The position numbers and the translations under genes were made by a program. 64,000 bases of DNA, taken from the NCBI GenBank assembly GCA_035765775.1, contig DASTWV010000021.1, positions 124,001 through 188,000 on the forward strand, read 5' to 3'. This document shows positions 60,211 to 63,617 of the stretch, one piece after another. How positions within the stretch are numbered: the first letter of the stretch is position 1; the number at the start of each line of letters is the position of its first letter. The notes below the pieces were generated by a model, which worked only from the letters and a program-made list of their open reading frames with translations, did no database searches and was not told where the DNA came from. The DNA comes from Actinomycetota bacterium (GTDB taxonomy: Bacteria > Actinomycetota > CADDZG01 > JAHWKV01 > JAOPZY01).

Positions 60211-60438
60211 ATGCGGGAACTCTTGTCCTGGCAGTCCATGGCGCGCTGCCTTGAGGTGGACCCCGAGATCTTCTTCCCGGAACGCGGGGGTTCCTCCCGG
60301 GCGGCACGCGCGGTCTGCAATACGTGTTATGTGCGGGCCCAGTGCCTGCGCTACGCCCTGGCCAACCGGGAGCAGTTCGGCATCTGGGGCGGGACCAGCG
60401 AGCGGGAGCGCCGGAAGCTCAAGAAGCTCGCCTCCTAA
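60211..60438 (+). CDS. WhiB-family iron-sulfur transcription regulator
   Basis: A 75-residue WhiB-like protein. Four cluster cysteines C13, C36, C39 and C45 (CxxC followed by x5C) and the GIWGG turn at 57-61 are all present, then a basic DNA-contact tail (RERRKLKKL). WhiB proteins bind the sigma factor through the 4Fe-4S form and respond to redox signals or NO. The length and lack of extensions fit WhiB1/WhiB2 types, but a subtype cannot be assigned. Ends tail-to-tail with the glutamate formiminotransferase gene. Confidence 0.95.
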   Translation: MRELLSWQSMARCLEVDPEIFFPERGGSSRAARAVCNTCYVRAQCLRYALANREQFGIWGGTSERERRKLKKLAS

Positions 60439-61364: not shown

Positions 61365-62147
61365 CTACGGGTAGGGCAGCTCGGACGGGGCCACCGGGTC
61401 GGGGCCGGCTGGGGTGTCGCCGGCACCGTCCGGGGTGCCGTTGGCGCCGGCCGGGCCGCCGAGCGCCTGCTGGATGGCGTCGAGGAACACCTCCTCGGGC
61501 ACCGCCCCCAAGACCTCCAGCCGGTCGTTGATCACGATCTTGGGCACCGCCGACACGGCGTAGGCCTGCGCCATCTCGGGGAACTCCTGCGCCTCGATGG
61601 AGGCCGAGCGCACGTTCGGGCTCGCCAGCGCCAGCCGGTGGGCGGTCACGACCGCCCGGGGGCAGTGCGGTCAGGTGGGGGTGACGAAGACCTTCAGCTC
61701 GACGGGGGCGGGCAGCTGCGCCAGGGCCTCGACGGTCTCGGCGCTTAGGCCGTGGCCCGCCGCCGACCCGGCCGAGGCGATGGTCTCGATCAGCGAGGTG
61801 AACTCGTAGCCGTCGGGCAGGCCCACGAAGCGGACGCCGGCGTCCTCGGCGTCGGGGGTCCCGTTCGCTGGGGCGACCGAGAGCGTCGGCAGGCGGTTCA
61901 CGCCCCAGCGGGACGCCGCCTCGGGATCCTCCCGCACGTCCACGACCTTCAGGCGTAGGTGCTCGGACAGCGCCGCCAGCTCCTCGAGCAGCTCCTGGGC
62001 GGCGCCGCACGTCTCGCAGGTCTGCCGCCCGGGGACGTACAGTCCGGTGTCCGCCTCGGTGAACAGGCGCAGCTCGACGTCGCCGGCCAGCACCGTGGCA
62101 AACTGCTCCCGCAGGTAGGCGGAGTCCGTGTCGCTCAGAAAGGCCAT
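61365..62147 (-). CDS. Selenoprotein: two-domain thioredoxin/glutaredoxin-like protein disulfide oxidoreductase (UPHC)
   Basis: A 260-residue protein read through one in-frame TGA. Domain 1 (about 1-120) has CETC at 44-47; domain 2 (about 148-235) begins ELKVFVTPT, then TGA at 61673-61671 as residue 159, then PHCPRAVVTAHRLALAS. In homologs this reads TPTCPYCPRAV, so TGA replaces the N-terminal active-site Cys, giving UxxC with C162 as resolving residue. SAVPKIVINDRLEVLGAVPE is the cis-Pro region of domain 2. A hairpin with SECIS features follows the TGA. The architecture is that of PDO/glutaredoxin-like disulfide oxidoreductases. TGA is used as a normal stop in many neighbours. Shares its promoter region with the other selenoprotein gene. 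Confidence 0.85.
61640..61657 (-). promoter_or_regulatory. Bacterial SECIS-like hairpin downstream of TGA 61671-61673
   Basis: Minus strand: 13 bases after the TGA, GGGCGGT pairs with ACCGCCC (perfect 7-bp stem) around the loop CGTG. The loop starts 20 bases after the TGA with G in its second position, within the range of known bacterial SECIS elements. Confidence 0.75.
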
Positions 62148-62231: not shown

Positions 62232-63617
62232 ATGGCTGAGCCGAAGCGGGGTCGGGACATCGTCAAAGAGGCCAGGGCGGAGGTCGAGCCTCTCGAACTG
62301 GAGCAGCTCAACGACATCATCCGGCGCCGGGAACCGGTGACCATCGTCGACGTCCGGGAGGGCGACGAGTGGCGGGCCGGGCACGTGCCGGGTGCCATCC
62401 ACATCCCCCGGGCCTACCTCGAGCTGCAGGTGGACGACGCCCTGCCGGACAAGGAGGCCCCCGTCATCCTGTACTGCGCCGGCGGCAACCGCTCCGCCAT
62501 GGCTGCCCGCACGCTGCGGCAGATGGGCTACACGAACCTGCGCTCGCTGACCCGGGGCTTCTCCGGCTGGCGGGACGGCGGGTTCAGCGTCGTCGTGCCC
62601 CGCAAATGGACGCCCGACCAGCGGGAGCGCTACTCACGCCACTTCACCCTCCCCGAGGTCGGCCAGGAGGGCCAGGCCAGGATCGCCGACGGCAAGGTGC
62701 TCGTGGTGGGGGCCGGCGGCCTCGGCGCGCCCGCCCTCTACTACCTGGCGGCGGCGGGGGTGGGCACGCTCGGCATCGTGGACTTCGACGCCGTGGACAT
62801 CTCCAACCTGCAGCGCCAGATCATCCACTCGACGTCGCGCATCGGGATGAACAAGGCCGAGAGCGCTCAGCAGACCATCAACGACCTGAACCCGGACGTC
62901 AACGTGCGGATCTGGACCGAGCGGCTGACCCCGGACAACGTCGAGGCCATCGTCTCGGACTTCGACGTGGTCATCGACGCCACCGACAACTTCTCCACCC
63001 GCTACATGGTGAACGAGGCGTGCGTGCGCCACGGCATCCCGTACGTCTACGGATCCATCTTCCGCTTCGAGGGCTACGCCAGCGTGTTCTGGCCCGCACA
63101 GGGGGCGCCGTGCTACCGCTGCTTCTATCCCGAGGCGGCCCCCGACAACCTGGCCCCCACTTGAAACGAGGCCGGGGTCCTGGGCGTGCTCCCAGGCATC
63201 GTCGGTGTTGTGCAGGCCAATGAGGCTCTGAAGATCCTCGTCGGCTACGGCGAGCCGCTCACCGGGCGGCTGCTGATGTTCGACGCCATGCAGACCAGCT
63301 TCCGCACCCTGAAGCTGCGCCGCGACCCGGAGTGCGCCACCTGCGGCGCCCACGCCGAGGCCTGGCAGGCATGGGAGGAGGGGCAGGCCGGGAAGTCAAG
63401 GGGGCCGGCGAAGGAGGCGGTGGCGGTGCGGATGGATTCGCTGCCGGCGGCTGGTCAGTCAGCTGCTGCGCCTGCAGCCGAGCCCGCCAGCGCCAATGGC
63501 GCCAATGGCGCCCATGACGCCGATGCCGCTCATGCGAACGGGGCGAAGGCGAAAGAAGGCAAGACCAAGGACAAGGCCAAGCACAAAGCAGGCAAGGCCG
63601 CTACCTCTTCCGTCTAG
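62232..63617 (+). CDS. Selenoprotein: rhodanese-MoeB/ThiF-type E1 adenylyltransferase with Sec at the conserved Cys
   Basis: A 461-residue protein read through TGA at 63162-63164 (residue 311). Order: rhodanese domain (about 15-125; VTIVDVREGDEW, active-site C82 in YCAGGNRS), then an E1/MoeB fold (about 128-375) with GAGGLG at 160-165, SNLQRQIIHST, DATDNFSTRY, zinc cysteines C294/C297 (CYRC) and C368/C371 (CATC). Between the zinc pairs the sequence is PDNLAPT-U-NEAGVLGVLPG; homologs read APSC-x-EAGVLG, so Sec replaces the conserved Cys that acts in acyl/persulfide transfer in MOCS3 and ThiF-like enzymes. A Lys/Ala-rich tail ends the protein. Rhodanese precedes the E1 domain, the reverse of MoeZ. 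ATG follows GGGAGAGG. Confidence 0.85.
63179..63196 (+). promoter_or_regulatory. Bacterial SECIS-like hairpin downstream of TGA 63162-63164
   Basis: 14 bases after the TGA, CCTGGG pairs with CCCAGG (6-bp stem) around the loop CGTGCT. The loop begins exactly 20 bases after the TGA and starts with CGTG, as in the other selenoprotein gene. Confidence 0.75.

Follow-up and report, generated by a model that had tools for sequence, protein, structure and literature searches.

Selenocysteine (Sec) containing protein disulfide oxidoreductases (PDOs) were reported from Carboxydothermus and Symbiobacterium in 2006 (PMC1794560), and Asgard archaea supplied later examples. The family has an entry among the catalogued selenoprotein families, 'predicted with high confidence' (PMC13188914). 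The PDOs of Pyrococcus furiosus (1a8l) and Aquifex aeolicus (2ywm, 2ayt) consist of tandem thioredoxin folds with two CxxC sites, and a tandem fold is also found in the N-terminal domain of AhpF (5h29, 1zyn). Sec-containing MoeB is likewise a known family (PMC1088965).

Here we describe a locus within a window of DNA, by which we mean the whole stretch of 64,000 nucleotides analysed. Its PDO gene belongs to a known but rare selenoprotein kind in a little-studied bacterial lineage, distinct from the published examples that we found (Carboxydothermus, Symbiobacterium and Asgard archaea). In common with these it has the TIGR02187 model and a UxxC motif with one Sec. The tandem folds and the two active sites are shared with the Pyrococcus and Aquifex PDOs, and the TPTxPxC context with 1a8l, but the second-site nucleophile is Cys in those proteins and predicted to be Sec in the window PDO. 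Compared to AhpF, whose tandem fold it shares, the window gene has no flavoprotein part and the identity is lower. On the side of the window, Sec-PDOs extend over three family groups and are paired with a Sec-MoeB in the window's order. The less expected parts are this pair of Sec genes and a one-site form of the PDO in a related family (f43).

One reading frame across a TGA codon

Two adjacent minus-strand open reading frames, 62147-61671 and 61649-61365, had been described in an initial annotation as one gene split by a single TGA. They do form a single frame with one TGA at 61673-61671, and the resulting gene (61365..62147, minus strand) encodes 260 aa with an ATG start and a TAG stop. Reading through the TGA (61671..61673, minus strand) places U159 in the context TPT-U-PHCPRAV as the first residue of the second CxxC motif. 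The same annotation had claimed 101 intact codons beyond this point; we counted as many and found their composition to be of the coding type. The GC content by codon position is 0.75/0.51/0.96 upstream of the TGA and 0.73/0.47/1.00 downstream, a coding-type pattern on either side.

Only three in-frame TGAs in the 64 kb window have coding-like flanks on both sides. One is in the PDO gene, one in the neighbouring MoeB gene, and the third is an ordinary gene end with another gene following in frame. That TGA is an ordinary stop in the neighbouring genes, as had been stated, agrees with our gene predictions, where it terminates 22 of the 41 genes of the window. The code in use is thus the standard one, with no general recoding.

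The product had been named thioredoxin-like, which stands as far as the thioredoxin folds are concerned and can be sharpened to protein disulfide oxidoreductase. Pfam finds thioredoxin-like domains, and the NCBIfam model TIGR02187 (PDO_seleno_TRX) matches at 232 bits (curated cut-off 185), residues 6-228 aligning to positions 2-209 of 209. The closest solved sequences are the Pyrococcus and Aquifex PDOs. Structure prediction from the sequence alone gave a poor model (pLDDT 40), and we use instead an AlphaFold model built from a 28-sequence alignment (mean pLDDT 89.9). The best PDB matches of this model are 2ywm, 1a8l and 2ayt, followed by the N-terminal domain of AhpF, with a TM-score by target length of 0.89 against each of 2ywm and 1a8l. 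As modelled, the protein is thus made of two tandem thioredoxin folds. The first active site is an N-terminal CxxC (CETC, residues 44-47; 62007..62018, minus strand) and the second is UPHC (residues 159-162); the four Cys columns of the two sites are invariant in the alignment with U counted as C. Activity as a disulfide reductase, oxidase or isomerase is predicted from family membership.

Conservation of the TGA and the Sec machinery

Unbiased searches of relatives found a TGA at exactly the homologous PDO codon in 28 genomes of one phylum, the window's included, with 3 in the window's order, 7 in family f20 and 18 in family f43. All 84 non-TGA homologues (80 from named genomes and 4 from the phylum of the 28) have Cys at position 159. 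Since the pattern behind the first homologue search, KVFVTPTC, itself favoured Cys forms, this count is no measure of frequency. The homologue alignment, with Cys in 84 and TGA in 28, thereby agrees with the earlier claim that the TGA sits at the nucleophilic Cys of the second CxxC. A quick tree has at least two changes between the Sec and Cys states and is also compatible with a single origin. We conclude that the apparent stop of the PDO gene is very probably read as Sec at the active site, judging from the sequence comparisons.

Downstream of the TGA, comparison of the window PDO to its two closest relatives gives a pN of 0.17-0.27 and a pS of 0.44-0.67. Substitution after the TGA is therefore mainly synonymous, suggesting that the downstream part is under purifying selection. 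In family f43, the N-terminal CxxC is absent in all 18 Sec-PDOs (L121, L122, L130-L145), leaving UPHC as the sole CxxC-type motif, a finding in favour of catalysis at the Sec site.

The window genome is a draft of 62 contigs with 95.8 % completeness. The presence of selA, selB, selD and tRNA-Sec had been put forward as a check on the Sec reading, and all four are encoded in this genome. The selA and selB genes adjoin each other on contig C44. Two tRNA-Sec genes with a UCA anticodon (L009 1501-1592 and L010 361-452) differ from each other at three positions and have unrelated flanks; two matches are seen in several relatives too. The SelD gene (L019, contig C32:7484-8413) has a TGA at its own catalytic position (HGAG-U-ACK). 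A second, C-terminal SelA-like piece with a weak score (55.6 bits) lies at a contig start (L018, contig C37:8-346) and does not resemble the main selA at the DNA level. Among the 28 Sec-PDO genomes, 22 have a tRNA-Sec match and the remaining six are drafts. SelA is present in the window genome and in all three of the Sec-PDO genomes tested (G001, G004 and G055); the draft assembly of G001, with both Sec-PDO and SelA, gave no tRNA-Sec match.

A candidate SECIS hairpin and alternative readings of the TGA

A candidate SECIS apical hairpin, GGGCGGU-CGUG-ACCGCCC, is located at 61640..61657 (minus strand) with its loop 20 nt after the TGA. According to the published model (PMC13188914), a bacterial SECIS has a stem of 4-16 bp and a loop of 3-9 nt whose first two bases include a G, the spacing is 16-37 nt, and the MFE is −7.5 or lower. 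The PDO hairpin, with its 7 bp stem, CGUG loop and 20 nt spacing, is within these constraints, its MFE being −18 to −25 for 40-55 nt, and the expectation of a bacterial SECIS after the TGA was borne out to that extent. Taken by itself, the window hairpin does not exceed what synonymous shuffling of the gene produces (p=0.26). The two relatives, G001 and G004, give 0.14 and 0.05 when any place within the allowed range counts, and the three-genome product at the fixed hairpin place is 0.003, which is weak as the sequences are related. The loop CGUG is identical in G001 and G004, and two stem pairs are altered on both sides at synonymous positions. These compensatory pairs join the third base of an Ala codon with the third base of a Thr codon and read G-C, U-A and C-G in the three sequences; covariation as observed was reached by 31 of 500 column shuffles.

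Hairpins are stronger in Sec genes than in Cys genes with GC ≥ 0.6 (p=1.6e-6, computed on related rows). Family f43 has a near-invariant hairpin (CGCCGGC-CGUGYU-GCUGGCG) and raised codon conservation near the TGA (p=0.005), and family f20 has a loop of its own, again with raised codon conservation (p=0.02). No such rise in codon conservation is seen around the TGA within the window's order. Because of this, and because the window hairpin is unexceptional alone, the case for a SECIS rests on comparison. Two further leads were set aside: a search of Rfam with the PDO hairpin gave a single match, to a microRNA family, which we attribute to chance, and a loop motif common with the SelD gene found no support; neither of the first two loop bases in the SelD hairpin is a G.

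Could the TGA be other than a Sec codon? A single base change from TGC or TGT would suffice to create it, whether by mutation in a pseudogene or by error in a draft assembly of 62 contigs such as this one. We regard such an origin as extremely improbable: the same codon is TGA in relatives from three family groups and 28 genomes in all, which argues against a sequencing error, pN is far lower than pS in the conserved downstream half, and the genome has every component of the Sec machinery. It is also very unlikely that the locus makes two proteins, one of 158 residues up to the TGA and one of 94 residues restarting at the GTG at 61649. This GTG follows soon after the TGA and accounts for the two open reading frames in the mechanical list, but a protein begun there would have neither the UxxC motif nor the opening strand of the second thioredoxin fold, whereas the model is one continuous fold and the Cys homologues are fused across the TGA point.

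Near-cognate suppression, by which the UGA would be read as Trp or Cys without SelB, would fit a window hairpin that is statistically unexceptional alone. Against it are the Cys found in every one of the 84 non-TGA homologues, which points to Sec, the tRNA-Sec, SelA, SelB and Sec-containing SelD encoded together in the genome, and the use of TGA to end 22 of 41 window genes; we give this reading hardly any weight. We are therefore highly confident in a genuine selenoprotein PDO, predicted from the combined comparisons, in which SelB and tRNA-Sec(UCA) would decode UGA 159 under the direction of the hairpin.

The divergent rhodanese-MoeB gene and a possible sulfur relay

An 84 bp gap separates the PDO gene from a divergent gene (62232..63617, plus strand, 461 aa) for a rhodanese-MoeB/ThiF E1-like enzyme, which has one in-frame TGA (63162..63164, plus strand) encoding U311 in the context LAPT-U-NEAGVLGVLPG. 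Within the class, 13 genomes have TGA at codon 311, among them all 8 from the order, and 3 have Cys. A candidate SECIS hairpin (CCUGGG-CGUGCU-CCCAGG) is found at 63179..63196 (plus strand). The Sec forms keep CCUGGG-CGUGCU-YCC, while the Cys forms are without the hairpin or without the CGUG loop. The divergent rhodanese-MoeB gene is thus, as predicted from its sequence, a second selenoprotein gene. We take U311 to be at the position of the crossover-loop catalytic Cys, 14 residues from a CxxC zinc motif, presumably the same spacing as in Uba4/MOCS3. In Uba4, the crossover-loop Cys forms a thioester with Urm1 that is then attacked by the rhodanese persulfide (PMC7527816). The Sargasso Sea Sec-MoeB (PMC1088965) is, like the window neighbour, a MoeB/ThiF protein with one Sec; the window protein, compared with it by Sec only, has an N-terminal rhodanese domain and is encoded divergently beside a Sec-PDO.

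The pair of Sec-PDO and Sec-MoeB is kept in G001 and G004, divergent and with a TGA in both genes, although in G004 the two are separated by one other gene. Sec-MoeB is also found in members of the order without PDO, and so MoeB does not need PDO. Downstream of the PDO gene is a formiminotransferase gene, and a WhiB-type regulator is encoded at 60211-60438 (plus strand). Taken with the high GC content, this regulator points to a probable actinobacterial origin.

We propose that SelB and tRNA-Sec(UCA) would decode UGA 159 as Sec in a cytosolic two-domain PDO, directed by the hairpin beginning about 13 nt past the UGA. The selenolate of Sec159 would attack client proteins at their disulfides (or persulfides), with Cys162 resolving the selenenylsulfide. 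By analogy with archaeal PDO and AhpF, electrons may come from a thioredoxin-reductase-type flavoenzyme via CETC; archaeal PDO is reduced by thioredoxin reductase (PMC7278568). Such an enzyme could function in redox repair or in a sulfur relay. A joint role with the Sec-rhodanese-MoeB is possible, the conserved gene pair being the one observation that suggests it. More speculatively, and with a low probability in our own estimate, the two may form a selenium-dependent sulfur-relay pair in which Sec311 of MoeB would bind a sulfur-carrier protein as an acyl-seleno intermediate, Sec159 of the PDO would reduce leftover mixed (seleno)disulfides or persulfides, and the PDO of the related family would be a one-site Sec enzyme.

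Pipelines that treat TGA as a stop would split the PDO and MoeB genes alike. With the present data, Sec-PDO now covers three family groups in a phylum where many genomes have tRNA-Sec. Family f43, having kept the Sec and lost the other CxxC, provides a natural experiment on which of the two sites works. The conserved pair brings together a thiol-disulfide enzyme and an E1-like sulfur-transfer enzyme, each with a predicted Sec, and a role of selenium in sulfur-carrier chemistry thereby becomes testable.
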